DNA of 33,819 nucleotides, from IMG/VR virus record IMGVR_UViG_3300024265_000150, positions 1 through 33,819 of that record. One strand, written 5' to 3'. Positions 5,309-33,763 of the stretch are shown here, piece by piece. The stretch comes from a virus. How positions within the stretch are numbered: position 1 is the first letter of the stretch; the number at the start of each line of letters is the position of its first letter. A program made the translations under genes and the position numbers. Below the pieces are notes generated by a model. That model saw only the letters and a list, made by a program, of their open reading frames with translations, ran no database searches and was not told the DNA's origin.

Positions 5309-5309
5309 C

Positions 5310-5912: not shown

Positions 5913-8134
5913 TGAAGAGGTTGGTCATGTGCCTGGTGTTGCTTGCTGGCCCTGCTTGGGGCGCTGGTGACGACAGCGAAGCGATCTGCGACACTCCCGG
6001 CGCTGGCTACATCTGCCTTTGTAGTGAGCCGCTGACTGGCGACAACGAAACCAAAACCGGCCGGTTCAACCCGGTTGGCGGATCGACAAAAGAGTGTGCC
6101 GGAGGCGAGGCCGTTTGGGGCCAGGCTCCGGCGAACTCCAGCGAGTTTATACAGTCGGTCCCCGCTTCGAGCCTAACTAACTCGATGACCGTAGGCGGTA
6201 GCGGCTATGTACTGGAGTTCACTGCGCGAGCGCGCTTTAACGTCGGCGACAACACGCGGACCTTTACCAACGGGACGTATTGCTCGCGGCACTATGCCTA
6301 TTACGACTGGGCCTACTCATGCCCCGGTAGCGGTTCGTGCTCTTTGAAGGCGAACCGTTACGACAATAACGGCGGAGGCAACACCGTCGGGCTGCAAATG
6401 TCCTCAGCCCGCAACCCGTGGCGCATCTATTGGGCCTATCGTAATTCGACCGCTATGGGCGGGTGTGGGAACTCGGGAGATCCTCAGCCCGGAAACGCTT
6501 CAAACGGCTGTGAAACAAACGCGTCGACCTTCCTGCAAACAAATCCCGATAGCGTAAGCCGAGACGATATGTTCGGGTATTGGTCGCGCTGGGAAATTTG
6601 CTTTGACCATAATCTCACAGAAGATCAAGTGCTGACCGACCTAAACGACGAGTACGGTTCAGTGCTGACCTACCCGGGGTCAAACCGCGTCTACGCTCGG
6701 GTGAAGATTACTATGGTGACGGGGCCTGACGCCGGGTCAGAGATACTCTTGGGGCCATCATACGGAGAGAACTCCGTCTCGACGATCAACACAGGAACCC
6801 GCACATGGTTCGGGACGTCGAGAACGGGAGGCCCACCCGTTCTCGGAACGCCCGGGCCGTATCGAACCGTCTACAACATGGCGATGCTAAAGACCGCCGC
6901 CGACCCGACCTACTGGATCGGCGCCGCAGACGAAGCCGGAGAGGGCGCGGTGCCGACCGCAACACCCTCTGCCACACCCACAGTATCACCAACCTCAACG
7001 CCGGGCGGGCCCACGCCAACATCCACCGCAACGCCAACGACCGCGCCGACATCGACGCCCGGCGGCCCCACCGCAACGGCCTCGTCAACAGCGACACCGA
7101 CGACCACGCCGACCTCGACGTCGCTCTCCTGTCTACCAGAAGGCTCTAGTTGCGCCGGCAACGCCACCTGTTGCTCCAATAGCTGTGTCCGTGTGGGCGC
7201 CGGGCACGGCCGCTGGGAATGTACGGCGCCGCCCGCCTCGCCGACGGCGACTCCATCCCCCACGCCTCGCGCGATCACCGTGCTGGCCGAAATGAACTTC
7301 GAGGGGGTCGGCTGTGTGGATCAACAGGGTGGTGTCGACGGCGACACCTGCACCACCACCGGGGCCTACAGCGCCGACTGCGCCAACGGAACCTCGGACT
7401 GCGACATCGGCGGCATCGGCAACGCGCTACTGAGCGGCTGGTCCGTCGGCGACGGCGACGCCTCTTCGATGAGCCTAGGCTTTGCTCCCACCGAAAAAGT
7501 CACGGCAGACTTCACAATACGCTTCCCGGCAGACACCAACAACGCCGTCGGCCCCGTGATTGCGGGCCTGAAGGATAGTGACGGGCTTGAAGTCTTTACC
7601 GTCATGTGGGCCCCGTCTCTCCAGAAGATACAATTTCGTTGTGGTAACACCGACGGCACCGTGGCTGTGTCGGGTTGGCAGCAAGGGGGAACGATACCTC
7701 CCGACTACAGATATTTGGGAGACGATATGAACCTGGACATCCGAATGAACTTTGACGGCTCTGGGTCGAATCCAGTCTGCACCTACTATGTTGACAGAAC
7801 AGACCTGGGCGGCACAGAACCTGAGATAGGCCCCGGGGTTGGAAATGTCCTGAGGAATGACGGGATCCCCACAGGCGTTCCAGTACCGCTAGAACACCCG
7901 AACGGGGAAGGCGTCAATGCAGCCAGCTTCTTCCACACCGAAAGCACGCCCCTGGAAGCCTTCGGTTCCATCATAGACGACATCGGGATTTGCAACGCCG
8001 CCGTGAGTTTCCCGTCGCCCGGCTCTTCATGCCAAAGCGGCCCGGAGCCCACCGCGACGCCATCTGCGACACCGACGACCACGCCGACCGCATCGCCGAC
8101 GACCGACCCGAATTGCCGGCGGGGCAGATGCTAA
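5912..8134 (+). CDS. Large secreted modular adhesin-like protein with two beta-sandwich domains and a knottin-like module
   Basis: This is a 740-residue protein. The ATG at 5912 overlaps the upstream TGA (TGATG); a TTG at 5909 would add one residue. The order is: Sec signal (MKRLVMCLVLLAGPAWG); a Cys-containing beta-rich domain to about residue 345, lectin/LamG-like in character; a Pro/Thr linker of about 55 residues; a cystine-knot-like module near 405-440 (CLPEGSSCAGNATCCSNSC and a later C); a short linker; a second beta-sandwich domain, residues 456-708; and a C-terminal Pro/Thr linker ending CRRGRC. Linkers joining carbohydrate-binding-like domains suggest polysaccharide or surface recognition. 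Domain identities come from pattern only. It lies between two fibre-like genes, so it could be a virion spike or an exported conversion protein. Confidence 0.82.
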   Translation: MKRLVMCLVLLAGPAWGAGDDSEAICDTPGAGYICLCSEPLTGDNETKTGRFNPVGGSTKECAGGEAVWGQAPANSSEFIQSVPASSLTNSMTVGGSGYVLEFTARARFNVGDNTRTFTNGTYCSRHYAYYDWAYSCPGSGSCSLKANRYDNNGGGNTVGLQMSSARNPWRIYWAYRNSTAMGGCGNSGDPQPGNASNGCETNASTFLQTNPDSVSRDDMFGYWSRWEICFDHNLTEDQVLTDLNDEYGSVLTYPGSNRVYARVKITMVTGPDAGSEILLGPSYGENSVSTINTGTRTWFGTSRTGGPPVLGTPGPYRTVYNMAMLKTAADPTYWIGAADEAGEGAVPTATPSATPTVSPTSTPGGPTPTSTATPTTAPTSTPGGPTATASSTATPTTTPTSTSLSCLPEGSSCAGNATCCSNSCVRVGAGHGRWECTAPPASPTATPSPTPRAITVLAEMNFEGVGCVDQQGGVDGDTCTTTGAYSADCANGTSDCDIGGIGNALLSGWSVGDGDASSMSLGFAPTEKVTADFTIRFPADTNNAVGPVIAGLKDSDGLEVFTVMWAPSLQKIQFRCGNTDGTVAVSGWQQGGTIPPDYRYLGDDMNLDIRMNFDGSGSNPVCTYYVDRTDLGGTEPEIGPGVGNVLRNDGIPTGVPVPLEHPNGEGVNAASFFHTESTPLEAFGSIIDDIGICNAAVSFPSPGSSCQSGPEPTATPSATPTTTPTASPTTDPNCRRGRC

Positions 8135-8158
8135 CAGCAACACAGTGAGGAGTCAAAC

Positions 8159-9265
8159 ATGAAAAACAAAGAAGTCTTTGCGCTGGCGGCACTCCTTCCC
8201 GCGCTTCTCGTCTGCTCCGTGTTGCTCATAGGCGCGGGCAGCAAGAAGATCGACGACTCAACCGTCTGGCGCGGCCAAGAAGGCGAAACCATCAGCAACG
8301 TCATTGCCGGCGAGTTTAGGTTCATATCGGACAACAACGTGGACATTGTTCTAAAGGCGATCGACTCGGCTGGGGTTACGAATATGAAGCTATCGACCTC
8401 TGGTGCCGGAACGATAACGCTTGGCGAAAGCGTGAACGCGGGTGAGATCGTATTCCAAGGGAGGGACGCCACCCTTATCCAAGATGCGACGGCCACCTTC
8501 GGGGCGCCTAACGAAATGACCGCCGACCGCACGGTCCTCAACCAATACGTTGGTATCCCTAAGTTGAACGTGACCCACACGGGGGCGCTAGCCAACGGGA
8601 CACTGGGGGTCGATGTGGCCAACCCGCTGTTGGCTAACTGTAGCGCGCCCGTCAACGGTTCTGAGGACGACGACACCACCAACTTCATCACGGGCGTCTC
8701 TAGTTATCAATACACCTTCGACGCCACGGCCGCCGAGAGTGACGGTATTGATTGCGACATCGGCTACCCAGAGGTCCAGGGGATGGATAGTGTGGGCTTC
8801 TGGTTCCGAACAGACACCGCTATCGCCTCTGGGGACATGGAGATCAGGCTCAAAGATACCGAGACAGACGAAGCCCAAGAGGACTTCCCGGCCGTCACTG
8901 TGGTGGACGAATGGCAGTGGATTGAGATAAGCGTCAACACTGACTGTGCGGCTGAGTGTGAAGGGGTAGACGGGTTCGAGCTTGTTGTGACATCCCAAGC
9001 CCCCACCAACCTCAATGACGTAGTTATCAACATTGACCAGATCGGTCTTTGGATCGCCACCAGCGAAACTCTGATCGGCGACATCCAGGTAGGCGGCCTG
9101 ATTGACTTCTCAACCGGCCTAATCACCCCCGCCGCTGCGGGCGCACAGACACAGGCTGTCGAGTGGACTCATTACTTCATCAATTACCAAGCGTCGGCTG
9201 ATGCGATCATCCCCATTACTGATCTCTCTGCGACTTACGGAACCACGCTAGAGGCGTTGAACTAG
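8159..9265 (+). CDS. Fibre-like / carbohydrate-binding-like structural protein with hydrophobic leader
   Basis: This 368-residue protein has a strong ribosome site (GAGGAG, six bases before the ATG). The N-terminus (MKNKEVFALAALL) resembles the protein at 3000, and LLIGAGSKK resembles LLGVGSKK of the fibre at 3449, so the three share a leader type. Residues 40-140 are Gly/Ala/Thr-rich fibre-like beta structure (TLGESVNAGEIVFQGRDAT). Residues 150-305 look like a carbohydrate-binding beta sandwich (MDSVGFWFRTDTAIASGDME, WQWIEISVN, INIDQIGLW). Likely a virion surface or baseplate-distal protein, though the leader would also allow membrane anchoring or export. Confidence 0.8.
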   Translation: MKNKEVFALAALLPALLVCSVLLIGAGSKKIDDSTVWRGQEGETISNVIAGEFRFISDNNVDIVLKAIDSAGVTNMKLSTSGAGTITLGESVNAGEIVFQGRDATLIQDATATFGAPNEMTADRTVLNQYVGIPKLNVTHTGALANGTLGVDVANPLLANCSAPVNGSEDDDTTNFITGVSSYQYTFDATAAESDGIDCDIGYPEVQGMDSVGFWFRTDTAIASGDMEIRLKDTETDEAQEDFPAVTVVDEWQWIEISVNTDCAAECEGVDGFELVVTSQAPTNLNDVVINIDQIGLWIATSETLIGDIQVGGLIDFSTGLITPAAAGAQTQAVEWTHYFINYQASADAIIPITDLSATYGTTLEALN

Positions 9266-9274
9266 GGGGCGGCC

Positions 9275-9571
9275 ATGTCGTACAAAAACTGGACCCAGGG
9301 CAGGCGCGGCGTCGCGGTTGGCGTTTCGATTGCGGTGATCGTCTTCGGCCTCAGGGCGCTACAAGGGCACTTCGCGCAAGCCGCCGACTCCCACGCCGCG
9401 ACTGACCAGAACACAGAGATGCTCGAGCAGGTCGTCCTGTTGGTCACAGAGCTCGGCGAGCGGGCCAAGGCTGAAGATGTCGCGACTGAGCAGGACAAGA
9501 AGCGATGTCTACAGGGCAAGATCGTCGACCTCGAAATCTGCGGTGCGGCCGGGGTGGAGCCCGCGCTATGA
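9275..9571 (+). CDS. Small membrane protein with periplasmic coiled coil, possible inner spanin or holin partner
   Basis: This is 98 residues with one transmembrane segment near 11-27 (RRGVAVGVSIAVIVFGL), positive residues before it and a mostly helical charged region after it (TEMLEQVVLLVTELGERAKAEDVATEQ), ending with two cysteines. The topology and position directly before the endolysin (ATGA overlap) fit an inner-membrane spanin subunit. A holin-like or unrelated lysis accessory role is also possible. Confidence 0.72.
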   Translation: MSYKNWTQGRRGVAVGVSIAVIVFGLRALQGHFAQAADSHAATDQNTEMLEQVVLLVTELGERAKAEDVATEQDKKRCLQGKIVDLEICGAAGVEPAL

Positions 9572-10086
9572 GCGAGGCGTTCAACGCCGCGCTGGAGTTC
9601 CTTCTCGACCGAGAGGGCGGCTACGTCAACCACCCGAACGACCCCGGTGGCGAGACGAACCTCGGGATCTCCAAGCGCAGCTACCCCAACGAGAACATCG
9701 CCGGGATGACGCGGGAGCGTGCCGCCCACCTCTACCACCGCGACTACTGGTTTCCGAACCGCTGCGGGGAGATGCCGCGCGAGGTCGCGCTGCCGCTGTT
9801 CGACTTCGCTGTGAACGCCCCGGCGCGGTCCGCTCGGATCTGCCTCCAGCGGGTCGTCGGCGCGAAGCCGGACGGCGTACTCGGACCGATGTCGATGGCC
9901 GCGATCCGCCGGGCGATCGACGCTGACGGCGCGCGATGGGTGGGCCTCCAGTTGATCGACAGGCGCCTCCAGCGTTACATCGGCCGCGTCCGCCAGGGCC
10001 GATCGTCGGCGGAGTTTCTGCTAGGGTGGACGCGCAGGCTTCATCATCTGATCGTTGAATTGTACGAGGAAGGGGGAACACAATGA
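9568..10086 (+). CDS. Endolysin, GH108-type N-acetylmuramidase
   Basis: This 172-residue lysin cleaves the glycan strands of peptidoglycan. DREGGYVNHPNDPGGETNLG at residues 14-33 is the Glyco_hydro_108 signature; Glu16 is the expected catalytic residue. The second half (ALPLFDFAVNAPARSARICL, GAKPDGVLGPMSMAAI) matches the PG_binding_3 helical domain that follows in this family. No signal peptide is seen, so release would depend on a holin. The ATG at 9568 overlaps the preceding stop (ATGA) and has GGTGGAG about nine bases upstream. The reading frame extends upstream to 9505, but those residues do not belong to the family. It overlaps the following lipoprotein gene by four bases. Confidence 0.93.
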   Translation: MSEAFNAALEFLLDREGGYVNHPNDPGGETNLGISKRSYPNENIAGMTRERAAHLYHRDYWFPNRCGEMPREVALPLFDFAVNAPARSARICLQRVVGAKPDGVLGPMSMAAIRRAIDADGARWVGLQLIDRRLQRYIGRVRQGRSSAEFLLGWTRRLHHLIVELYEEGGTQ

Positions 10087-10418
10087 GACACGGAATCATC
10101 TTGCTAGCGGCGCTGCTGGCGCTGGGCTGCAACACCGTGAGCGTCAAGACGCAGGGCGCGGCGGGAGAACCCATCACCGCCAAGGGGAGCGGCGCGGGGC
10201 GCGGGGCCATCGAGCTCACCGTGGCGCCAGACGGGACAACGAAGGCCCTCGGGTGCTTCGATGCCACGAGCGACTGGCTGTGGCTCCGCATCATCCCGAC
10301 GATGGTGGAGGGCGCGATCACCGCCTTTTTTGGGAAGGTCAACCCGAACCCCGGCGGCATCACCGGGCCCTCTGGGATTGGCGGCTGCGACAGCCTCTTC
10401 GAGCAGGGAGAGGAGTAA
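10083..10418 (+). CDS. Lysis-cassette lipoprotein, possible outer spanin
   Basis: This is 111 residues with a lipoprotein signal: MRHG, a hydrophobic stretch and lipobox LALGC, with Cys16 expected to be lipidated. The mature part is Gly-rich, with a hydrophobic patch (WLWLRIIPTMVEGAITAFFG, residues 64-83) and two further cysteines. It overlaps the endolysin stop by ATGA. A small lipoprotein immediately after an endolysin fits an outer-membrane spanin component, and with the hydrophobic patch a one-piece spanin is conceivable. The spanin role is inferred from position; the lipobox is seen. Confidence 0.78.
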   Translation: MRHGIILLAALLALGCNTVSVKTQGAAGEPITAKGSGAGRGAIELTVAPDGTTKALGCFDATSDWLWLRIIPTMVEGAITAFFGKVNPNPGGITGPSGIGGCDSLFEQGEE

Positions 10419-10419
10419 T

Positions 10420-10626
10420 ATGCGACCCCAAGACTGGCTCCAAGGCTACAAGACATACCTCTGGCTGATCGCCCTGTGCGTCTTTATCGTGACGACGGGG
10501 CAGGTGCCGGAGGGCACCGAGGGCGCCCTCGCCGGGCTAGACGAGGCATCCATCAAGGAGTTGCTCTCGGTGGGTGCCCTGAGCGCACTCAAGGCCAAGT
10601 GGAACCGGGTGACTGCGGGTAGCTGA
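10420..10626 (+). CDS. Single-pass small membrane protein, holin-like
   Basis: This is 68 residues starting at the ATG at 10420, preceded by a GGGAGAGGAG ribosome site four bases away. One hydrophobic segment lies near residues 11-28 (TYLWLIALCVFIVTTG), followed by a helical tail ending in basic residues. Its place at the end of the lysis cassette suggests a holin or holin-associated role, but one-segment phage membrane proteins are diverse. Confidence 0.7.
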   Translation: MRPQDWLQGYKTYLWLIALCVFIVTTGQVPEGTEGALAGLDEASIKELLSVGALSALKAKWNRVTAGS

Positions 10627-11961: not shown

Positions 11962-12498
11962 TCACCTCCCCCTTGAACGTCGGCCCGGGCGCCCCCGCCC
12001 ACCCGGCGTTGATTTTTCGACAACAAGCTCGGCGTCAACCGCGTAGTATAGAATCGACAGCGGCGGGATCGGGGGAACCGGGCCCGCCAGATCATCGGGG
12101 GCAACGCCGTCGCCGTCCGTGATGTAGAGGGTGTACGCGCCCGGCTTGTTGGCCGTCAGCAGAAAGGTCATCAGGGGCATCCCGGCCGGGATGATGTCGC
12201 TGCGGCCAGTCGCGGAGGCGGTCCTGACGGTCCTGATCGCGTTGTTGATGTTCACCGTGAACATCCCCAAGACCCAACTCGACGCAGTGTCGACTTGGAT
12301 ACCGTTCCCATTCCAGCCGAACGTGATGTCGGTGGAGCCGAGCACGAGGTCTTCGTCGGCGGCGATGGTCACGACGATCCCGGTCTGCCCGGAGACGATC
12401 GGGCCCGGGGTGTTGATTTGGATTGCGAGGTTCAGGGCTGAGGCTGTGAGTGGCATGGCGAGCAGGGCGATGGTGTAGATTGATAGCCGTGGGTTCAT
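11962..12498 (-). CDS. Secreted cohesin-like beta-sandwich protein
   Basis: This is 178 residues with a Sec signal (MNPRLSIYTIALLAMPLTASA). The mature part follows the layout of cohesin-type domains: a opening strand with V.G..G.VVTI, LVLGSTDITFGWNGNGIQV, a middle strand with a turn, then MPLMTFLLTANKPGAYTLYI and a closing strand. Cohesins bind dockerin modules and also occur in surface proteins outside cellulosomes; no dockerin was seen here. The C-terminus is a basic Gly/Arg tail, partly dictated by the next gene's ribosome site. The ATG is seven bases after AAGGAG. A secreted binding protein in an early operon is unusual. Family call moderate. Confidence 0.75.
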   Translation of the reverse strand: MNPRLSIYTIALLAMPLTASALNLAIQINTPGPIVSGQTGIVVTIAADEDLVLGSTDITFGWNGNGIQVDTASSWVLGMFTVNINNAIRTVRTASATGRSDIIPAGMPLMTFLLTANKPGAYTLYITDGDGVAPDDLAGPVPPIPPLSILYYAVDAELVVEKSTPGGRGRPGRRSRGR

Positions 12499-13534: not shown

Positions 13535-13766
13535 CGGTGGGCTCCACGACTAGGCCGCATTCAACGGTTACTGTTTCATAGCCGTATGCAGGTGGCACCT
13601 TGATTACGATCCGTCCCCAGTCCTCGGGGCACTCGGGTTCTTCCCAGAACTTAATCTGGTAGTCTTCGGTGCCCACAAAATACAATTCCGGATCTGGCTC
13701 AGGCGACTGCGCACCGGCCACCCCAGCCACGAGCAAGACTGCCAGGACACAGCGGACGTTAGGCAT
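13527..13766 (-). CDS. Small secreted hypothetical protein
   Basis: This is 79 residues with a Sec signal (MPNVRCVLAVLLVAGVAGAQ, cleavage near residue 19). The mature part is short, acidic and beta-like with two cysteines (PECPEDWGRIVIKVPP, TVTVECGLVV), which could form one disulfide. I do not recognise it. The start overlaps the end of the exonuclease gene by eight bases. It is one of two secreted proteins in this otherwise replicative operon. Confidence 0.72.
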   Translation of the reverse strand: MPNVRCVLAVLLVAGVAGAQSPEPDPELYFVGTEDYQIKFWEEPECPEDWGRIVIKVPPAYGYETVTVECGLVVEPTDD

Positions 13767-14529
13767 CGAAGCTGACCCCCGTGGTCACTCTCCAGCACCA
13801 CGCATTGCGGTTGCAGTATTTACAGAACTTACAGAACTGCGAGGTGGCCGCGGCGGGCCGGTCGAGAAGCACGAGCGAGTCGACGATGGCCCCCGCCTTC
13901 TCGCGGAGTTCGTCGAAGCGGCCCTTGTCGAAACGGATTCTCTCGGCGTAGATCGAGTCTGGGGTCCAGCGTTCGTTCTCGAGCACGAAGTCGTTCTTGT
14001 TGAAGACCACGAACAGGCATGTATCCAGCCCGGTGTAGCCCATATACATCTGCACCTGATCGACGTACTCCGGCTTCCACGCCGCCACCCCGCACCCGCG
14101 CAGCACCGCGAACTGGCGAGCGTTGGCGCTCTTGATTTCGAGGAGCATATCGGGCTTCTCGCCGTCGGTGATCTCCCCGTCGGTGCGGCCCGATACCCGG
14201 TTATCAAAGTCGCTCACGCGGAATTGCTCGCCCGTTCGCCAGTCGGTTGTTCGCACAATGTAGCCACCAATACCGAGCAGGCGGGCGACATGCGCCTCGA
14301 TCGCGTTGCCGTGCTCAAAGATCCCCAGCACGTGCGGCGGGAGCGGCTCGTCTTCGGGTATCCGATTCACCGCGGCCCACAGGTTGCGCGCGCACTTTCC
14401 GATCTGCGAAAGCGCGAGCCGGTCGCCGTGTCGATCGGCGTCGCGCTTCTCGCGAAGGGCCACTAATCCCTTCTCGATCCGGCGCGCGACCTGGGGTTGA
14501 GGATCTCTGAGCAGCGGCAGCGTGGGCAT
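13759..14529 (-). CDS. Cas4/RecB-like PD-(D/E)XK exonuclease with probable Fe-S cluster
   Basis: This is a 256-residue nuclease. The active-site pattern is His73 (FEHGN), Asp117 (GRTDGE), Glu131-x-Lys133 (LEIKS) and the QVQMY motif at 158-162, as in the PDDEXK_1/Cas4-AddB group. One N-terminal cysteine (Cys46, GKCARNLW) plus Cys233, 236, 239 and 245 supply the ligands expected for a 4Fe-4S cluster (one extra). It probably resects DNA ends for the Sak4/DUF669 pair encoded directly upstream. The ATG shares its A with the upstream stop (TGATG), so translation is likely coupled. The surroundings are phage genes without cas1 or cas2, so a CRISPR role is unlikely. Confidence 0.87.
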   Translation of the reverse strand: MPTLPLLRDPQPQVARRIEKGLVALREKRDADRHGDRLALSQIGKCARNLWAAVNRIPEDEPLPPHVLGIFEHGNAIEAHVARLLGIGGYIVRTTDWRTGEQFRVSDFDNRVSGRTDGEITDGEKPDMLLEIKSANARQFAVLRGCGVAAWKPEYVDQVQMYMGYTGLDTCLFVVFNKNDFVLENERWTPDSIYAERIRFDKGRFDELREKAGAIVDSLVLLDRPAAATSQFCKFCKYCNRNAWCWRVTTGVSFDA

Positions 14530-15041
14530 CAGAACGGAACGTCGTCGTCTGACGGCCTGCTCGGGGGCGCGTCTGCCGGCGGTGTGGCGGCGGGAGTGCT
14601 GAACGGCTTGTACTCGGCGATCACGTTCTCGAACCCCTCTGAGTCGGCATACTGCACGCGGTCGGGCTTCGCCCTCCGCTTCACGACCCGCAGGATGTAC
14701 GGCTTGCCGTGGAGATCCTCGCTGCTCTCGATCCTGTCGGGTGTCGGGTGCCCGACGGCAAGCGCGAGTTGCTTGAGCCGGGCGAGTGAAATTTTCACCG
14801 CATCCTCACTCGGGTTCACGAGGTTGAGGTGGTCGAACAGCACACGCTTGCCAATGGCCGGGTCGAGGCACTGCTGCTGCAACCCGAGCACCCACCCGTT
14901 ATTCTTGTTGTTGGGCTTGTAGGTGGATTTCACCACGATGAACGGGTACTCGCCCGTCTCGATCGACATGTAGTCCCCGCCGCCCCCGCTCATGTCTTCC
15001 TCTGTGACGCTGGACGTGTCTGCGTTGATTTGCGGTGCCAT
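14529..15041 (-). CDS. DUF669-type single-stranded DNA-binding protein
   Basis: This is 170 residues. The sequence (YMSIETGEYPFIVVKSTYKP, GWVLGLQQQCLDPAIGKRV, FDHLNLVNPSEDAVKISLAR) fits the DUF669 phage family, usually found beside Sak4-like ATPases. The Pro-rich C-terminus ends in DDDVPF, the acidic tip typical of SSB proteins that recruits partner enzymes. This supports an ssDNA-binding role in recombination or replication. The ATG directly follows the stop of the ATPase gene, and its own stop overlaps the exonuclease start. Confidence 0.86.
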   Translation of the reverse strand: MAPQINADTSSVTEEDMSGGGGDYMSIETGEYPFIVVKSTYKPNNKNNGWVLGLQQQCLDPAIGKRVLFDHLNLVNPSEDAVKISLARLKQLALAVGHPTPDRIESSEDLHGKPYILRVVKRRAKPDRVQYADSEGFENVIAEYKPFSTPAATPPADAPPSRPSDDDVPF

Positions 15042-15848
15042 TTACGCTGCCCCCTTCTTGGCCTTCTTGGGTTTGATTCCCATTGCCGTCATCAGCGCGC
15101 CCCGGAGCGGCCCGAAGGGGTCGTCCTTGGGAACGTCGATTTCAATCGGGAGTCCGTAGCGGTTCTTCGCCTCGAACCCGCCCGTGTCTTCGAGGTGGAG
15201 CACCCGCGCCCCGCCCATCTTCGTGGTCGTTGTGACCTTGCGCCCCCGCGCACCTTCCTTTTCGAGCGCGGCCCGCTTGACTTCGAGAAACCCCACGACG
15301 TCGGCCCACTCGTAGAGCAGCGCGTTGGCGTGCTTGTGCAGTTTGGGTTGCACGGTGTCGTAGGGCGCGAGCACGGGGTCGGAGATGGTCTTGACCTCGT
15401 TGTGGCACAGCACACAGACGGTCATCCCCTGCCGCCGCAACTGATCGAGCGCGCGGAAAAAGCTGATCCAGTAGGGGTTGGCGAACGTGTACCCCTTGCC
15501 GTAGCCGAAATCCTCGATGTTCGTGTAGTTCTTCGTGCCCGCCTTCTCTTGGCAGGTGTGCGCCCAGACAAGCGGCTCCACATGGTCGATGGTGTCGACC
15601 ACGAGCGAGCGGTAGTCGTGCTTCTCGTTGGCGAGTTCCCCGATCGCGTTCATCACGTCGATGTAGGACTCGGGCCGCGGGAGCGCGGCGACCTTGAGCA
15701 CCCCGAGGCCCTCCTCGGCGGGGAGGAAGATGGGGTTGGTGAGCGACGCCCCTAGGGTCGACTTACCCGACCCGCCTTTGCCGTGAACGACGATGCGCGG
15801 CGGTAGCTGCGCGGGCGTGGCTGAAACCTGGCTCAAGAGTGCTCCCAT
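15042..15848 (-). CDS. Sak4-like RecA-fold ATPase (AAA_24)
   Basis: This is 268 residues. Walker A is GKGGSGKS (residues 23-30) and Walker B is SLVVDT (Asp85). The shape, with FLPAEEGLGVLKVAALPRPE after Walker A, VCVLCHNEVKTI and KLHKHANALLYEWADVVGFL, is typical of phage AAA_24 ATPases of the Sak4 annealing group. These promote strand annealing together with a phage SSB, which matches the DUF669 protein encoded next. The C-terminus is Lys-rich (KPKKAKKGAA). Ribosome site GAGGAG lies seven bases before the ATG. The 42-base gap upstream shows nothing notable. Confidence 0.9.
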   Translation of the reverse strand: MGALLSQVSATPAQLPPRIVVHGKGGSGKSTLGASLTNPIFLPAEEGLGVLKVAALPRPESYIDVMNAIGELANEKHDYRSLVVDTIDHVEPLVWAHTCQEKAGTKNYTNIEDFGYGKGYTFANPYWISFFRALDQLRRQGMTVCVLCHNEVKTISDPVLAPYDTVQPKLHKHANALLYEWADVVGFLEVKRAALEKEGARGRKVTTTTKMGGARVLHLEDTGGFEAKNRYGLPIEIDVPKDDPFGPLRGALMTAMGIKPKKAKKGAA

Positions 15849-16121: not shown

Positions 16122-16330
16122 CACTCCCCCATCACGGTTTGCACATACTTCCGTGTCATCTTCTCAGCACAGCCCAGCGCGGTCATCACCCACCGATGCC
16201 GGTGCTGGCACATCTTCACGATCTTCTTGGTGCGCTTGTCTCGCGTGATGCCGACGTAGCCGCCGGCTCGTAGCGGGAGTCGGGATTTGCATTCGGCGCT
16301 GTATCGCGGGCGGGGTTGGCGTTTTTTCAT
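16121..16330 (-). CDS. Small basic hypothetical protein
   Basis: This is 69 residues, strongly basic (MKKRQPRPRYSAECKSRLP), with Cys and His residues in KMCQHRHRWVMTALGCAEK that could bind zinc. It may bind nucleic acid. The ATGA start overlaps the upstream stop. Confidence 0.68.
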   Translation of the reverse strand: MKKRQPRPRYSAECKSRLPLRAGGYVGITRDKRTKKIVKMCQHRHRWVMTALGCAEKMTRKYVQTVMGE

Positions 16331-16776
16331 GGGGTCGCCTGCTTAGGGAGGAGAGCGGCTCGGGCGACCCCGGCGCGGTTCTGACAGTACGCTCGTATTT
16401 CGTAGTCGTGGGTTTTTTGGGAGTCCCCGGCGGCTTCTAGCGACGATGCAGCATCTTCCACCACCCCTTGTAGCCGGATGTTTTCTTTCGTCAGCCAGTG
16501 GATCTTGACAGCCGCCTCGCTGGCAAACTCTGCGGTCCAATCGAACCACTGGAAAGGGCGCCCCCCCTCGTTAGACTCACAGCCGTTACAGCACGTCCAA
16601 AGAGGACGTTCGACCTCCACCTCCACCTCTTCTCCGGGGATGCCGACGGTGATTTTTTCTCGCAGAGGCGAAACACTCACGATCAGGGTGCCGCACTTCG
16701 CGCACCCATGATCGGAGTTCGCCTCAATTGCTCGCAGCGTGGCCGCGTCGTTTTGTAGTCTCTCGATCTCGCTCAC
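16327..16776 (-). CDS. Zinc-knuckle hypothetical protein
   Basis: This is 149 residues. GCAKCG (residues 24-29) and CCNGC (residues 62-66) form two half-sites of a likely zinc-binding fold, separated by beta strands. The second half is helical and ends VARAALLPKQATP. The family is unknown to me. It starts within the stop of the gene upstream and overlaps the one downstream, both by ATGA. Confidence 0.72.
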   Translation of the reverse strand: MSEIERLQNDAATLRAIEANSDHGCAKCGTLIVSVSPLREKITVGIPGEEVEVEVERPLWTCCNGCESNEGGRPFQWFDWTAEFASEAAVKIHWLTKENIRLQGVVEDAASSLEAAGDSQKTHDYEIRAYCQNRAGVARAALLPKQATP

Positions 16777-17082: not shown

Positions 17083-17256
17083 CTAAAGGAGTGAAATTGG
17101 GGTGGAATCCCCATGATCGGCTCGGAGCAGCCGGTTGGCGCAATCCGCGCACGTCAGAACCCCCCCGATGATGACGTCGGCGAAATTCGTGCATCGCTGG
17201 TTGTTCCATCCTGATCGGTCGACTTCGCAAATCTCGAGCGGCGGGGCTTCGGGCAT
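17083..17256 (-). CDS. 57-residue zinc-knuckle protein
   Basis: This short gene begins MPEAPPLEICEVDRSGWNNQ and contains LTCADCANRLLRAD. It has AGGAGG six bases before the ATG, and that ATG overlaps the upstream stop as TGATG. Four cysteines (two of them as CADC) suggest one zinc site. A longer open frame on the same strand at 17027-17230 lacks these signals and is taken as a shadow. Confidence 0.68.
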   Translation of the reverse strand: MPEAPPLEICEVDRSGWNNQRCTNFADVIIGGVLTCADCANRLLRADHGDSTPISLL

Positions 17257-17354
17257 CACGCTCCTCCTATTAGAACGCCGACCGACAATCCGGCGAAGAA
17301 AATCGACACTGCGGCGAGCAACGCTGCAATCTGGAAATACGTCTGCGCTCTCAT
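17256..17354 (-). CDS. 32-residue membrane microprotein
   Basis: Almost the whole protein is one hydrophobic helix (IAALLAAVSIFFAGLSVGVL). A strong ribosome site (AAGGAGG) lies five bases before the ATG, and the TGA is coupled to the next gene. It is the first gene of the leftward early operon, facing the XRE regulator. Function unknown; toxin-like or regulatory single-span peptides are possible. Confidence 0.65.
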   Translation of the reverse strand: MRAQTYFQIAALLAAVSIFFAGLSVGVLIGGA

Positions 17355-17449: not shown

Positions 17450-17692
17450 ATGAGTCGATACGCCCGAAACGATGTCCTGAAAACCGTCCGCACCTACCTG
17501 AAATTCACGCAGCGCGAGCTCGCCGAAGAGGCCAAGATCAACTCCACCTACGTCTGCCAGATTGAGACGGGCGCGAGGAAGATCGGGCACCGGGTTGCGT
17601 ACCAAATCTGGACGGCGCTGCGGCCCGCGTTTGACGATCTCGGGCTGACGCAGGAGGATCTTTTGCGCGGGTATCGCGAGGTCGTCTGGTGA
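17450..17692 (+). CDS. XRE-family (Cro/CI-type) HTH regulator
   Basis: This is 80 residues, nearly all one helix-turn-helix domain: KFTQRELAEEAKINSTYVCQ (residues 18-37) is the HTH, followed by IETGARKIGHRVAYQIWTAL as the stabilising helices. It lacks the C-terminal cleavage domain of CI-type repressors, so it is closer to Cro. It sits at the divergence point of the two early operons and probably sets their balance. No clear ribosome site precedes the ATG. Confidence 0.85.
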   Translation: MSRYARNDVLKTVRTYLKFTQRELAEEAKINSTYVCQIETGARKIGHRVAYQIWTALRPAFDDLGLTQEDLLRGYREVVW

Positions 17693-24729: not shown

Positions 24730-24888
24730 ATGCCGAATAGAGCTCAAGACTGGTTTCTGGCAACCGTCGCGGCCGTCGTCATGGCCGCGGTGGTGTTGGC
24801 TATCGCTTCGGGCTGTGCGCCCGTGGCGGTTTCACAGTGTACCACCGACATGGAGTGCGAGGCTTCGTGGCGGTTTCACCACAACTAG
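24730..24888 (+). CDS. 52-residue lipoprotein-like or anchored peptide
   Basis: The ATG at 24730 follows AAAGGGGCAC by three bases. A hydrophobic helix (WFLATVAAVVMAAVVLAIAS) leads to SGCAP, a possible lipobox, then a Cys-containing tail (SQCTTDMECEASW). The frame stays open upstream, but only this part has signals. Unknown role. Confidence 0.62.
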   Translation: MPNRAQDWFLATVAAVVMAAVVLAIASGCAPVAVSQCTTDMECEASWRFHHN

Positions 24889-27969: not shown

Positions 27970-28375
27970 CGTTCCTCCTTCCGCCAAAAAGGCGAGCGCA
28001 ATCGCTGATGTTGGATAGGTAACGAAGCCCCCGCCCCGCAGGCGCTCTATACGGGTTCGCCTTCTGGGGGCTCCGCTGGCCTCCCCGGCATTGCTGCGGC
28101 TCACAGCGCCCGGGGTTGTGCTCTCTCTGACCAAGAAGCGCCCCCTGGGTGAGCTACTCCCAGGGGGTCTTTAAGCCGGTCGCGCACCAGCTCTTTGCGC
28201 GGCGTGAGCGGGAGCAGGCTCCGGTGCAGCGTGACGGTTGCACCACGGCAGGGCCGCGCTGAGGGCTCTCTGTCGGCTGCGGGGCTTGCTCAAGGTGCAA
28301 CTTTCCCTACGATTCGGTTGTAGTAGCGCACACTTGAGTGTTCCGCAAGGGGTTTTGGAAGACGCCGACCTGTTT
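27970..28375. other. Gene-free, strongly structured region
   Basis: No gene seen in about 400 bases. Hairpin arms in order: AGCCCCC/GGGGGCT (28026, 28066); CCCCGG/CCGGGG (28083, 28110) with an inner GCTG/CAGC; the 9-bp terminator stem at 28141; CGCGCA/TGCGCG (about 28185); GGAGC/GCTCC (about 28211); and GTTGCACC/GGTGCAAC (28237, 28294). The density suggests a structured RNA or a stack of terminators. Confidence 0.5.
28141..28172 (+). terminator. Rho-independent terminator-like hairpin
   Basis: CCCCCTGGG and CCCAGGGGG form a perfect 9-bp stem around a 9-base loop, followed by TCTTT on the plus strand. No plus-strand gene precedes it closely, so it may end an untranslated transcript; on the minus strand it lacks a U tract. 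Confidence 0.6.
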
Positions 28376-28462
28376 TTAGCCGCAGCGCACAGCCAGATAG
28401 GTGAGCATGATGAGGGCCCCGATGGCGGCGCCTACCAAGGCGACTGCGAAATAGTGGCTCAC
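28376..28462 (-). CDS. 28-residue membrane microprotein
   Basis: A GTG overlapping the previous stop (GTGA) opens a 28-residue frame that is nearly all one membrane helix (VALVGAAIGALIMLTYLAV). Coupling and hydrophobicity support it. Last gene of the exported-protein cassette. Confidence 0.58.
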   Translation of the reverse strand: MSHYFAVALVGAAIGALIMLTYLAVRCG

Positions 28463-28557
28463 TTGCGCGCCCTTCTCTGGCGGTCCTCGCGCTCGAGCAG
28501 CCAGATCATCCAGCAAACCCAGACGCCCCAGAGAAAGCCGGCCCAGAATTCGCTCAC
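28459..28557 (-). CDS. 32-residue Trp-rich membrane microprotein
   Basis: Starting at a GTG five bases after GAGG, this reads MSEFWAGFLWGVWVCWMIWL and then a charged tail (EREDRQRRARK). It is a single membrane span with five tryptophans and a cytoplasmic-type basic end. It overlaps the next microprotein by GTGA. Confidence 0.6.
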   Translation of the reverse strand: MSEFWAGFLWGVWVCWMIWLLEREDRQRRARK

Positions 28558-28567
28558 TTGCGCCTCA

Positions 28568-28921
28568 TCAATCCAACTCGCCCATCCGCGCGTACCGGAG
28601 CATGTCTGCGGCGAGATCATCCATCCGCTCCTTGCGTGGCGCGTGCCAGCAGGGCCAGGCCGCATGACAGGTGCCGCATGTGCGGTTCTGTTGTTCTCGG
28701 TGGCCATCGCGGCGTGAATAGGAAACCTTCTGCCCCGCCACGATTTGGACCGGGGGGTCGAAATCCACCCGGACGTCGCCGGCCTCGTAGGAGTGCAGCA
28801 ACCCCCCGAACCGCCCCTGCCGGCCCAGGCGGACATCACCGCCGCCCTTGGCCGCGGCCATCCCGCCCACGGCAGCGATCAGCGCGGGGCCCAGGAACTT
28901 CAGGAAATCACGGCGCTTCAT
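28568..28921 (-). CDS. Tat-signal exported protein with CxxCH motif
   Basis: This is 117 residues from the ATG at 28921, which lies inside the end of the upstream gene (14-base overlap). The N-terminus KRRDFLKFLGPALIAAVGGM is a twin-arginine (Tat) signal. The mature part includes beta-like VRVDFDPPVQIVAGQKVSYS and CGTCHAAWPCW, a CxxCH motif as in c-type haem sites, plus a third Cys. One motif cannot distinguish haem from zinc or a thiol site. The C-terminus (MDDLAADMLRYARM) is helical. Tat signals are rare in phage genes. It is cotranscribed with a second Tat protein. Confidence 0.72.
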   Translation of the reverse strand: MKRRDFLKFLGPALIAAVGGMAAAKGGGDVRLGRQGRFGGLLHSYEAGDVRVDFDPPVQIVAGQKVSYSRRDGHREQQNRTCGTCHAAWPCWHAPRKERMDDLAADMLRYARMGELD

Positions 28922-29168
28922 AGAACGGCATCCATATCCAGCTCGGCTCCACTTCGCCACCCTTGACTATTTCGCTCAGCCACGTGGTGCCCGGCTCCGG
29001 CGTTGAGCAGTATACGTAGCCGGCGTCGTCGACGACCCCTACGTCCCATCCGCTGATTCTGGTCCACACCGGCTTACTGCGGGTCGCCGCCTTTATCCCC
29101 AACGCCCCCGCCACCGCCGCAATCGGCGCCATCCCGAGGAGCTTCAAGAAGCCGCGGCGTTCGATCAC
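28908..29168 (-). CDS. Small Tat-signal exported protein
   Basis: This is 86 residues (GTG start after GAGGG). ERRGFLKLLGMAPIAAVAGA is a Tat signal very like that of the downstream gene product (ERRGFLKLLG against KRRDFLKFLG), so the leaders are probably paralogous. The mature part is only about 60 residues, with Trp-rich beta-like segments (PVWTRISGWDVGVVDDAGYV). Unknown function. It follows the cysteine-rich gene by seven bases. Confidence 0.72.
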   Translation of the reverse strand: MIERRGFLKLLGMAPIAAVAGALGIKAATRSKPVWTRISGWDVGVVDDAGYVYCSTPEPGTTWLSEIVKGGEVEPSWIWMPFYEAP

Positions 29169-29175
29169 GGCGCCC

Positions 29176-29373
29176 TCAATCGAAACTCACGCATTGTCCC
29201 CGCGGCCCCGGATTCATGCAGATGCAGGCCGAGTTGGAGCACGCGGCGGTGCTGTAGCAGACGGTGGGCAGGCAACTTGTGACCCCCTCGCAGTGCGCGG
29301 GTGACGTGCTGGCGGCGAAGTGGATAGCTGCGAAGGCGATGAACGCCAACGTGCCGATGATCGTGGTTCTCAT
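29176..29373 (-). CDS. Secreted cysteine-rich peptide, knottin/EGF-like spacing
   Basis: This is 65 residues with a Sec signal (TTIIGTLAFIAFAAIHFAAS). The mature 40 residues hold seven cysteines (28, 34, 39, 45, 50, 52, 61). The last six are spaced C-x4-C-x5-C-x4-C-x-C-x8-C, compatible with an inhibitor cystine knot or the C-x-C-x8-C end of an EGF module. Three disulfides are plausible in the periplasm. AGGAGG lies seven bases before the ATG. First gene of the leftward cassette, so nearest its promoter. Confidence 0.72.
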   Translation of the reverse strand: MRTTIIGTLAFIAFAAIHFAASTSPAHCEGVTSCLPTVCYSTAACSNSACICMNPGPRGQCVSFD

Positions 29374-29388: not shown

Positions 29389-29406
29389 CGGGATGTTGGA
29401 GGTCGC
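29389..29406 (+). repeat. Left arm of long-range inverted repeat
   Basis: Complementary at 17 of 18 positions to 29546-29563; the perfect core is TGTTGGAGGTCGC. It directly precedes the cassette's first ribosome site, so it may be an operator. Confidence 0.6.
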
Positions 29407-29545
29407 CGGGGTATCCCCCTTAGCGTGATTCCGGCGGCGCGCCCGCGCTTATCTGGGACTGTTCGCGGATTACGCCTAGACACAGAATAGACCGTACCCA
29501 GCGGCCCCGTGTCTTCCATTCGGCTACTGTTCCGCCCCGCACGCC

Positions 29546-29563
29546 GCGACCTCCAACACCCCG
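29546..29563 (-). repeat. Right arm of long-range inverted repeat
   Basis: Partner of 29389-29406. It lies just downstream of the leftward -10 element, near the expected transcription start, so both arms flank the start of the cassette transcript. Confidence 0.6.
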
Positions 29564-29591
29564 TCCATAGCACGCTCACCGCGGCTGTCAA
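29564..29591 (-). promoter_or_regulatory. Leftward sigma-70-like promoter for the exported cassette
   Basis: On the minus strand TTGACA (29591-29586) is followed after 16 bases by TATGGA (29569-29564) with a TGC extended -10. The -35 lies within the palindrome. Confidence 0.5.
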
Positions 29592-29605
29592 TACGTGTAT
29601 TGACA
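29586..29605. promoter_or_regulatory. 20-bp operator-like palindrome
   Basis: TGTCAATAC-GT-GTATTGACA: perfect 9-bp arms around two bases. Each arm ends in TTGACA on its own strand, so one bound dimer could cover both -35 elements. The rightward -10 is poor (AATCTT or TAAATC). Confidence 0.62.
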
Positions 29606-29680
29606 CGCCGACAGAGTGGGTAAATCTTTTCCCACCTTGGATCCGATTACCCAAAAGAGACAATTATTTTCCCACAGGGG

Positions 29681-29708
29681 TTGACGACCCCACACAGCAC
29701 GGTATCTA
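29681..29708 (+). promoter_or_regulatory. Sigma-70-like promoter of the packaging operon
   Basis: TTGACG and TATCTA with 16 bases between, about 40 bases before the first packaging-region ATG. The predicted leader contains the TGCCTA/TAGGCA hairpin. Confidence 0.5.
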
Positions 29709-29750
29709 CTCAGGAACCTGCCTATTTTTTAGGCACAGGGGGACAATCTC

Positions 29751-30417: not shown

Positions 30418-31920
30418 TTGCCCATCCTCGGTGAAATCCCCGCAACCCCCATCCTCCCGAAGCCCGCGGTCTTCGAGGCGATGGGGTACGAGATGTTCGC
30501 CGACGAGGTGAAGGCGTTTCACGAGTCCGAGGCGCACACCCGGATCGTCGCGGCGCCCGCGCGCTCAGGCAAGAGCTACTCGGCGGCCCCTGAGGTCGTC
30601 CACCGCGCGATGCCGCACCGCCCGCTGGTGAGTTCGCTGCAATGGCTGATCGGGACCACCTTCGAGACGAACAAGGAGTGGTCCTACGTCTGGGAGAAAC
30701 TCATCGACGAGCGCGAGCGGTGGACGATGGGGGGTAAGACCCTCAACATCGAGAAGGCCCAGAACAACCCGCAGAACGGCAACATGCTCATCGTGATCGA
30801 CTGGGGCAGAGGCCCATACGGCCGCGCGAAGGCGATCATTGAGGGCAAGTCGTCCACGAATGAGAAGGCCCTACAGGGCGAGCACGTCACCCAGTGGGTG
30901 CAGTCTGAGGCCGCAGACCACGACCGCCGGGTCTGGGAGAAGTACGGCGCCCAGCGCTCGACGTGGGCCATCTTCCCGACCACCCCGAAGCCGGGCGCCG
31001 AGTGGCTGCGCGATCTGGTCGAGATGGGGGAGAAAGACCCCAGCCTGTCAATCGACTCGTTCACCTACCCGCCGCACGCCAACCCGCTCTACGACCACGC
31101 GCTGTTCGTGCGCGAGAAGAAAAAGGCCGCCAACCGCAGCCCCACGGGTCGCGCCGAAGACGACCCCTACTTCGCCGAGCAGTTCTTGGGCCACTGGGTC
31201 TACTACACCGGCATGGTGCTCCCGTTTGGCGCGCAAAACCGCGTCCAGATGGACGACGCTTGGCTCGAAAGCTGCCAAATCTACATCTCGTGCGACTACG
31301 GCTACTCCGACGCCTGCGTGGCGCTGTTCTGGGCGCTCATGCCGTCGGGCGCCTTTCTCCTCTACGATGAAATCTACAGCCGCAAGATGCTGACCCACGA
31401 GTTCGTCGAGCAGATCGCGAAGAAGCTCGAGGGCCACGAGAGCCAACTTGTCTACGCCACAGGCGACCCGAAACAGCCGCAGGTAGCCGACTACATGAAC
31501 CGCTACGGCTTGAACGTCATCGACGTCGACAAGAAGGCGCAGGCCGACCGCGCTGTGGGCCACCGCCGGCTCGTGGACCTGATGAGCGTCGATCCCGGCA
31601 CCAACCACCCGATGCTCTTTGTCGCCGAGGACCGCTGCCCCAAGACCGTCACCGAGTGGAAGCACCTACGCTACCGCGAGAAGATGTCCGACGAGTACGG
31701 CGCGTCGGCGTTTGACGCGAAGTGCGACGACCACGCCTACGACGCGGCGCGGTACTTCGCGATGACGCGCCCGACGACCGCCCGTGAGGCTCCCGGGCGC
31801 GACTGGCTCGCCGAGGCGCAACGCACCAAGCGGGCCGAGCGCGGCGTCACCTACGCCGGCACGCGCGGCATGGGCCGCTGGCACCGCTCCCGGCCATCGA
31901 CCATCGCGAGGGCCATGTGA
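30418..31920 (+). CDS. terL: Terminase large subunit
   Basis: This is a 500-residue packaging motor. ATPase: Walker A APARSGKSYSA (residues 46-56), with QWVQSEAAD as the likely Walker B acidic segment. Nuclease: SCDYGYSDACVALFWA around residue 293 (first Asp), YATGDPKQPQVADYMNRYG (second) and CDDHAYDAARYF (third) give the RNase H-like triad. The TTG start at 30418 lacks a good ribosome site; the ATG at 30481 would trim 21 residues. It drives DNA into the prohead through the portal encoded next. The C-terminus is a basic tail. Confidence 0.93.
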   Translation: MPILGEIPATPILPKPAVFEAMGYEMFADEVKAFHESEAHTRIVAAPARSGKSYSAAPEVVHRAMPHRPLVSSLQWLIGTTFETNKEWSYVWEKLIDERERWTMGGKTLNIEKAQNNPQNGNMLIVIDWGRGPYGRAKAIIEGKSSTNEKALQGEHVTQWVQSEAADHDRRVWEKYGAQRSTWAIFPTTPKPGAEWLRDLVEMGEKDPSLSIDSFTYPPHANPLYDHALFVREKKKAANRSPTGRAEDDPYFAEQFLGHWVYYTGMVLPFGAQNRVQMDDAWLESCQIYISCDYGYSDACVALFWALMPSGAFLLYDEIYSRKMLTHEFVEQIAKKLEGHESQLVYATGDPKQPQVADYMNRYGLNVIDVDKKAQADRAVGHRRLVDLMSVDPGTNHPMLFVAEDRCPKTVTEWKHLRYREKMSDEYGASAFDAKCDDHAYDAARYFAMTRPTTAREAPGRDWLAEAQRTKRAERGVTYAGTRGMGRWHRSRPSTIARAM

Positions 31921-31948: not shown

Positions 31949-33763
31949 GTGACGCTCTCCAAAGCCCAATACAAGCTCTGGCAAGACCGCCTCCGCTTCG
32001 CCAAGGGCGTGTGGACGGACAAGGGTTTGATCGGCGATGGCGAGTCGACCATGCGCCTGCTGATCGAGTTGAACCGCGGCGACCAGTGGAGGCGCGCGGG
32101 GAAGGTGTTTGGCCCCGCATTGCGGGAAGAGTTCTACGCCACCGCAAACCGGGTCTTTCCGATCGCCAACTCGATCAAGGGCGACGTCGCCGCGCGCAAC
32201 CCGCGCGTGCAGATGTTCCCGAACCAGCCCGAAGCCACAAGGATGGCCGCGCCGGTCGAGCACCTCATCAACTACGACATTCGAGAGCTGAACTTCAAGC
32301 GACAGACCAACCGCGCGCTCGACCACCACCTCTTCGGGCCGTTTGGCATCGTCCGGCACGGGTTCACGCCATCAGCAGAGTTTGAGACAGAGGGCAGCGA
32401 AAAGACCCGCCCGCGCAGGATGCAGACCTATCGGCCCGCGAAGCCTGACCGGCCGTGGATCAAGGCCGTGGAGCCGTGGAACGTGCTGATAGACCCGACG
32501 CAAAGTTCGTTCCACGTTGACGACGGCATGTGGTGGGTGGCCTTCCGCGACATCATGTGGCTGGAAGACATCAAAGACAATCCGAACATGATTACGCGGG
32601 AAAACCTCGGCGAGTACGCGGGCAACGTCAAGCCCGACTGGGTGCCAAAGACCGAGGAGTTCGACAACAACGTCGACCCCGACAAGGAGAACTACGTCGA
32701 GGTCTACACGGTCTTCGAGTCGCGCGAGCGAACGTGGTTTCAGATCACGCTGGACGGGCTCGATAAGACATTGCGCGAACAGGACGACTGGCCGATCGAC
32801 TGGGAGACGCTGCCGGTTTCCATCTTCCAAGCCAACGAGCAGATGGACACGCCGTTTTCAATGGCGATCATGGATGAGATCGCGCCGCTTCAACTTGAGA
32901 TGAACCGGCTGCGGACGATGATGGGGCAGTTGGTGTTCCGGCTGATCCAGACGGTTGGCGTCAACAAGAACAAGATCGACGCGAACGAACTGACCAAACT
33001 CGAAACCGCAGAGATCCACGAACTGATCCAATTCAACGTCGACCCTAAGGACGCCCTCGCGATTGTGAGTTCCGGCACCTTCCCGGGCCAAGAACTGCTC
33101 CAATTCCACGCGCTGCTCGACGAAGACATGCGCCAAGTCTCCGGCCAGGGCAAGATGGGTCGCGCCGAGCGGATCAACGTTGAGTCGGCAACCGAGGCTG
33201 CCAACGTGCAGCGCGGCCAAGACGTGAACACCGCCCGGATCGCCGACGCCTACGAGGACTTCAGCGGGGACGTCATCCGGCTCTACATGCAGGGCCGGCG
33301 CGCGACGATGGAAGAGACGGGCGACGAGTTGGTCCGCATCGTGGGCGCGATTGACGCCGACGGGATGCAGCAGTGGGGCAGGGTGACTCCGGGGGATCTC
33401 CACGGCGACTACGAGCTCCAGGTGGTTCACGGCAGCACGCGCAAGCGCGACAAGGCCGCTGAGGCGCAGGCCGCCGCAGCGCACCTTCAGGTAGCAGCCT
33501 CGATGCCCCAGCAGTTCAAGGTCGACGTGGCCGCGCGGGACTACCTCTTGGCGCTTGGCAAGTCGCCCGAGCAGCACTTGACCAAGCAGTCGCTTGTCGC
33601 TGCCGCGGTGATGACGCTCGACGCGATTCGCCGCGACGCCGCGAGTGGCGAGGCCGGCGAAGAGGGCGCGGCCAACCAGGGCTTCGATGCCAACGCCGCC
33701 ACGCTGGTCGGCGCAACGCCAGATCAAGCACCCACGGGCACCAACGGCGCGGGAGGCGCGTAA
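31949..33763 (+). CDS. Portal protein
   Basis: This is a 604-residue protein from the GTG at 31949, nine bases after AAGGGTG; the frame is open further upstream inside the terminase gene. FYATANRVFPIANSIKGDVA, ARNPRVQMFPNQPEA, FGPFGIVRHGFTP, AVEPWNVLIDPTQSSFHVDD and a helical wing/stem region (QLEMNRLRTMMGQLVFRLIQ) fit large phage portal proteins. An Ala/Gln-rich C-terminus follows. It forms the dodecameric ring at the capsid vertex, docking the terminase. The position right after terL confirms it. Confidence 0.9.
   Translation: MTLSKAQYKLWQDRLRFAKGVWTDKGLIGDGESTMRLLIELNRGDQWRRAGKVFGPALREEFYATANRVFPIANSIKGDVAARNPRVQMFPNQPEATRMAAPVEHLINYDIRELNFKRQTNRALDHHLFGPFGIVRHGFTPSAEFETEGSEKTRPRRMQTYRPAKPDRPWIKAVEPWNVLIDPTQSSFHVDDGMWWVAFRDIMWLEDIKDNPNMITRENLGEYAGNVKPDWVPKTEEFDNNVDPDKENYVEVYTVFESRERTWFQITLDGLDKTLREQDDWPIDWETLPVSIFQANEQMDTPFSMAIMDEIAPLQLEMNRLRTMMGQLVFRLIQTVGVNKNKIDANELTKLETAEIHELIQFNVDPKDALAIVSSGTFPGQELLQFHALLDEDMRQVSGQGKMGRAERINVESATEAANVQRGQDVNTARIADAYEDFSGDVIRLYMQGRRATMEETGDELVRIVGAIDADGMQQWGRVTPGDLHGDYELQVVHGSTRKRDKAAEAQAAAAHLQVAASMPQQFKVDVAARDYLLALGKSPEQHLTKQSLVAAAVMTLDAIRRDAASGEAGEEGAANQGFDANAATLVGATPDQAPTGTNGAGGA

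Follow-up and report, generated by a model that had tools for sequence, protein, structure and literature searches.

A leftward five-gene cassette of predicted envelope-directed proteins in a divergent podovirus-like phage, and a candidate class of small phage Tat genes

On balance, the cassette described here is probably a moron-like, envelope-directed accessory unit and an elaborate example of a recurrent, apparently undescribed class of small phage Tat genes. The same degree of belief covers the anatomy of the unit and the class jointly, the latter comprising Tat genes that lie next to terminase or head genes, are frequently accompanied by membrane microproteins on the same strand and sometimes carry passengers resembling virion or packaging proteins of the same phage. 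This reading is built on the observed anatomy of the unit, its HMM and motif signals, the similarity of one product to the terminase, the proximity of the class to TerL and its microprotein neighbours.

Layout, coding support and flanking signals

The window, that is, the whole stretch of DNA analysed, comprises positions 1-33,819 of IMG/VR virus record IMGVR_UViG_3300024265_000150 and belongs to a divergent podovirus-like virus. It encodes an internal virion protein (10-2994), a lysis cassette consisting of a TM protein, a GH108 endolysin, a lipoprotein and a TM protein (9275-10626), Cas4-type exonuclease, SSB and Sak4 genes (13759-15848), a small HTH regulator (17450-17692), TerL of the packaging operon (30418-31920, + strand) and the portal (31949-33763). 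The portal reaches 21% to a Manatee Spring podovirus and the internal virion protein less than 28% to Autographiviridae and others, and no close phage relative was found by TerL or portal. A sister contig of 47 kb shares an identical stretch of at least 9.4 kb that includes the cassette. The record IMGVR_UViG_3300028610_001120 ends near 47363 in bases that form an inverted repeat of the adjacent stretch within the capsid gene, a feature suggestive of an assembly artefact.

Five tightly packed ORFs run leftward on the minus strand from 29373 to 28376, namely P1 (29373-29176, 65 aa), P2 (29168-28908, 86 aa, GTG start), P3 (28921-28568, 117 aa), P4 (28557-28459, 32 aa, GTG start) and P5 (28462-28376, 28 aa, GTG start, with a GTGA overlap with P4). 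The junctions from P1 to P5 measure 7, -14, 10 and -4 bases (gaps positive, overlaps negative), exactly the spacing claimed in an earlier note on this DNA, which was also right that the orientation opposes that of the packaging operon. Coding support, scored against stop-free off-frame stretches, is good for P2 and P3, which exceed every such stretch, fair for P4 and P5 (top 1.1% and top 0.9%, respectively, by codon usage) and weak for P1 (only top 5.6%, with a competing weak shadow ORF on the + strand), which may be non-coding. Tat-like ORFs are expected 0.15 times per dinucleotide-shuffled window, compared with two adjacent ones in the real window.

Upstream of P1 lies a 20-bp operator-like palindrome, TGTCAATAC-N2-GTATTGACA (29586..29605), a pattern with 0 occurrences expected by chance, though picked after the fact. 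Its leftward half is TTGACA, resembling a sigma-70 -35 element, and TATGGA follows 16 nt on, directly before the leader; a promoter consensus scan did not call this site, and with TATGGA the putative promoter would be weak and is only suggestive. The leader, a structured 5' region of 175 nt that the earlier note had not described (29389..29563, minus strand), adopts a predicted multibranch fold closed by arms at 29563-29546 and 29406-29389 that are complementary at 17/18 positions. No other inverted repeat in the window reaches 16 nt within a span of 400 nt, and the fold, which stops 1-2 nt short of the P1 Shine-Dalgarno sequence, has a z of -3.4, compared with a mean of -0.2 (sd 1.4) in sampled windows; no match to Rfam was found. 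Downstream of P5 stands a terminator-like GC hairpin, CCCCCTGGG...CCCAGGGGG (28139..28168), whose T-run is better on the + strand. A moron would have its own promoter and terminator and an orientation independent of the neighbouring operons; the unit shows opposite orientation and putative flanking signals, and it is probably transcribed as a single unit. Elsewhere in the window, a strong RNA fold was noted at 16567-16766 (minus strand; z about -4.9, 0/200 shuffles equally stable) inside the ORF 16327-16776, and an AT-rich region with three TTTTCCCAC-like repeats at 29600-29750, before the terminase operon, is a possible origin, operator or packaging site.

A unit that stands alone and has a palindrome and a promoter-like site of its own, in a phage with a small HTH regulator, could also be a lysogenic-conversion cassette that is expressed from the prophage and alters the host surface. 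Nevertheless, neither an integrase nor a partition gene was found among the genes searched, many phage genes having no match at all, and this reading is considered very unlikely. The earlier suggestion of an envelope-acting unit is partly supported: a real, separate, envelope-directed unit distinct from the lysis cassette stands, while lysogenic conversion gained no independent support.

The cassette proteins and the terminase-like passenger of P2

Motif, HMM and hydropathy evidence suggests that the products of the cassette are exported and may act at the envelope. P2 carries a Tat signal that passes the curated cut-off of TIGR01409 (22.8 bits, compared with 16.7), and P3 has the canonical motif RRDFLKFLG but falls just below that cut-off (14.0-15.9 bits), so that of the tandem Tat pair proposed earlier one member is predicted by the model and the other is borderline. 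P1 combines a Sec-type signal with a regular 7-Cys peptide (C-x5-C-x4-C-x5-C-x4-C-x-C-x8-C) and has the best Shine-Dalgarno sequence of the five genes, AGGAGG; its similarity to the phage's own Cys-rich exported protein at 5927-8134 is marginal (P=0.01). P4, which is Trp-rich, and P5 are predicted membrane microproteins, each with a single helix, and the 18-residue hydropathy maxima of P1, P4 and P5 are 2.0, 1.71 and 2.26, respectively.

The description of the cassette as wholly exported needs qualification in one respect, in that export signals also occur elsewhere in the window. Five consecutive genes with Sec-type signals follow the internal virion protein (3000-9265, + strand) and resemble host-secreted proteins, with PTATPT linkers, a cysteine module of the form CC..H...GC..WDxxC, a knottin-like module and a domain resembling BclA_C (E 0.0019); a host search with the cysteine module returned two weak taxa only, Planctomycetota and Acidobacteria. 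A 178-aa Sec-signal protein with a cohesin-like look is encoded on the opposite strand at 11962-12498 (minus). In addition, tiny exported-looking ORFs were seen at 17256-17354 (minus; a 32-aa single-helix protein) and 24781-24888 (+; a lipoprotein-like peptide ending SQCTTDMECEASWRFHHN).

Besides its signal, P2 bears a passenger that was not recognised in the earlier note. The mature part (residues about 27-86) can be aligned over essentially its full length with TerL residues 166-220 of the same phage, encoded at 30913..31077 (+ strand). The Smith-Waterman score is 72, compared with proteome maxima for shuffled P2 of mean 40.2, sd 4.2 and max 57 (300 trials against all 49 own proteins). BLAST of P2 against the six-frame genome gives the TerL match at E 2e-4, and the two genes also align as DNA over 53 columns (score 35, compared with 21.4 for shuffled sequence, sd 2.3). 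The motifs STPE.G..W and W..MP of the wider TerL family fit P2 as well. Matches to other individual TerLs are weak, with z about 2 (for G009 z is 4.2, in another part of TerL), and the simplest reading is therefore that the passenger derives from the phage's own TerL gene. The region copied includes the TP motif after Walker B and excludes Walker A, and P2 thus cannot be a motor. Measured against a large terminase, P2 covers about 55 TerL residues and has no Walker A, Walker B or nuclease, and no terminase match was obtained in Pfam or PHROG. An Asp-box or propeller reading of P2 was abandoned once the TerL alignment was found.

Because the passenger resembles the region of its own TerL after Walker B and the class described below clusters by TerL, P2 might instead be a packaging regulator. 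Its Tat-like N-terminus would keep it on the cytoplasmic side of the membrane, and its terminase segment would there compete with TerL for the portal, for TerS or for partners of TerL, so that packaging is delayed or that of competitors or satellites is spoiled. We regard this as unlikely, since P2 lacks Walker motifs or any known portal-binding region, passengers elsewhere in the class are pieces of capsid or tail, and the retention of export signals would go unexplained.

For P3, no match of the passenger to the phage's own proteome was found. Its C-terminus carries CGTCHAAWPCWH, a possible metal site. A c-type cytochrome reading of its CGTCH was rejected as unlikely because haem attachment comes after Sec export of the unfolded protein and the P3 signal is of Tat type. 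Single-sequence AlphaFold models of P3 and P2 have pLDDT of 42 and 49, too low for use.

The small TM proteins and the Cys-rich Sec peptide would also suit a lysis-timing accessory, in which P4 and P5 are holin- or antiholin-like and P1 is a periplasmic antiholin resembling RI; T4 RI, a periplasmic antiholin according to PMC8385771, provides the precedent. This explanation appears improbable, as a complete-looking lysis cassette is already present at 9275-10626 and the five genes, in opposite orientation, include no muralytic enzyme and no spanin.

Searches with P1, P2, P3 and P4+P5 (P4 alone being too short a query) against 2.9 M viral contigs recovered only the identical sister contig. The search for co-occurring homologues that the earlier note had called for thus found the set in one identical contig and nowhere else. 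P3 had no match in 85k genomes, and P2 and P3 had none, or chance-level ones, in named phages. No significant match was obtained for P1-P5 in Pfam, PHROG or PADLOC or for P1 and P3 in the PDB, in agreement with the earlier view that no known phage family explains the cassette, and the Tat signal was the sole match in NCBIfam. Pfam, PHROG, PADLOC and NCBIfam yielded no sequence relative of a known superinfection-exclusion protein, and PADLOC and NCBIfam no known defence or toxin-antitoxin model.

Small Tat-signal genes in other phages

As orthologues of the cassette were absent, the Tat N-terminus itself was searched for in the 2.9 M viral contigs using RRxFLKxLG patterns; the survey relies on a single motif and on a single codon pattern with a bias towards GC-rich genomes, and genes outside the window were called with a simple ORF chooser. 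RR[GDE]FLK[LF]LG occurred in 20 stretches, with two in the same contig only for this phage, and MxRRxFLKxLG with ATG occurred in 55. Most matches are small ORFs (54-190 aa) whose passengers are unrelated, and many have Shine-Dalgarno sequences.

In this survey the ORFs cluster near TerL, which was located with phrog_2, PF03237, phrog_38 and phrog_9. A Tat ORF lies within 2 kb of TerL in 16/27 records (6.3 expected, P 1e-5), a count in which the related G022, G028 and G037 enter three times among the near records and which includes G008 (Tat-TerL gap 10.9 kb). With this phage left out and contigs of at least 25 kb considered, the figure is 9/15 (1.4 expected, P 2.5e-6). The phrog_38 and phrog_9 searches were picked after their matches had been seen beside some Tat ORFs, and the count by phrog_2 and PF03237 only, 11/19 (3.5 expected, P 3e-5), is therefore the cleaner one; G008 lies outside it, and the unplaced G032 is in neither this count nor that of 27 records. 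Control small ORFs on nine of these contigs showed no such bias (14/117 near TerL, 15.3 expected).

Two other phages, L063 and L045, also have Tat genes in tandem. In L063 the pair is flanked by TerL and a portal-like gene, and another Tat-like ORF, the third, precedes TerS; the second Tat gene of L045 encodes Cys/His pairs. Same-strand small signal or TM ORFs within 300 bp of Tat ORFs number eight, compared with 1.25 expected (P 5e-5), second Tat genes accounting for two of them; the 600-bp version gives P 0.004. In addition, in five podovirus-like contigs (L024, L042, L038, L029 and L026) one small Tat ORF lies in antisense within the head-adaptor module, and the genes adjoining it likewise have Sec-type signals. 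A common Tat-like family of 187-252 aa (M[SG]RR[DA]FLKLLG...) was seen in the AT-rich contigs L027, L030, L033, L035, L036, L051, L054, L057, L076 and L081.

Passengers match their own contig at E 0.002 in six of about 31 cases, compared with 3/180 control ORFs, the similarities being short (25-75 residues). With targets named by PHROG, P2 matches TerL, L024 and L039/G009 match capsid and G028 matches tail fibre. The tail match also finds support in named tail proteins of Rhizobium phages. G022, which belongs to the Tat family of G028, matches another of its own ORFs, and L044 a small neighbouring ORF. What recurs across phages is architecture, namely small Tat genes by terminase, tandem pairs and membrane microproteins, and not sequence. 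No description of such a class by terminase was found in the open-access literature searched.

The DNA-level similarity between P2 and its own TerL gene, together with the shortness and low sequence conservation of the passengers, could alternatively indicate debris of gene birth, in which partial duplications of structural genes near a packaging recombination hotspot landed behind Tat-like N-termini and have little or no function. However, the Tat N-termini recur independently, many of the genes have Shine-Dalgarno sequences, some stand in tandem or next to microproteins, and small non-Tat ORFs do not cluster by TerL. Such an origin is accordingly given little credence.

Possible function and comparison with known systems

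Under the favoured reading of a moron-like accessory unit, the separately transcribed genes would send P1 via Sec and P2 and P3 via Tat to the host envelope, where P4 and P5 would sit as single-helix membrane microproteins. The Cys/His motif of P3 would be loaded before export, and the Tat route would suit a passenger such as this one that needs prior folding or metal uptake. The leading, though unproven and tentative, proposal for function is superinfection exclusion or interference with competitors through envelope proteins and virion-protein-like peptides. Against interference, a fragment of terminase or capsid, once it has left the cytoplasm, would have no obvious target in an incoming phage. 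A broader and rather doubtful version holds that the class is widespread and self-mimicking, each gene joining a Tat signal to part of a terminase, capsid or tail protein of the same phage and lying next to the packaging genes with membrane microproteins. It would export virion-protein decoys to the envelope and thereby block competitors or blunt the sensing of virion proteins.

Known morons and superinfection-exclusion proteins, including P22 SieA, T4 Imm and Sp, T5 Llp, Cor and Ltp, resemble the cassette in being small and envelope-directed, often with their own transcription unit, and several carry signal peptides, as the cassette is predicted to do (partly after PMC11436027). The cassette has no sequence match to them. 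No moron or exclusion protein is known to us to use the Tat pathway, to form a five-gene unit or to carry a terminase-derived passenger.

Compared with bacterial Tat substrates (TIGR01409), P2 and P3 share the n-region RRGFLKLLG or RRDFLKFLG followed by a weakly hydrophobic h-region, whereas they are phage-encoded, only 86-117 aa long and without a known enzyme domain, their passengers being terminase-like (P2) or orphan (P3). The likeness of P2 to the TerL ATPase domain lies in the TP motif region and, within the TerL family, in W..MP..NP; with a Tat signal added and the Walker motifs and nuclease missing, it is not a terminase. The small Tat ORFs of the IMG/VR phages L063, L045, L032, L039, L024, L066 and others share with the cassette the Tat N-terminus, size, terminase or head neighbourhood, tandem pairs and nearby TM microproteins; they differ in having unrelated passengers, and none has the five-gene set or a known relative of P1, P4 or P5. 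Little attention has so far been paid to phage genes that make use of the host's Tat route for exporting folded proteins. Should small Tat genes indeed be tied non-randomly to the packaging module in unrelated phages, with some passengers resembling virion proteins of the same phage, this would suggest an unrecognised envelope function, for which the class offers a simple and testable gene set.
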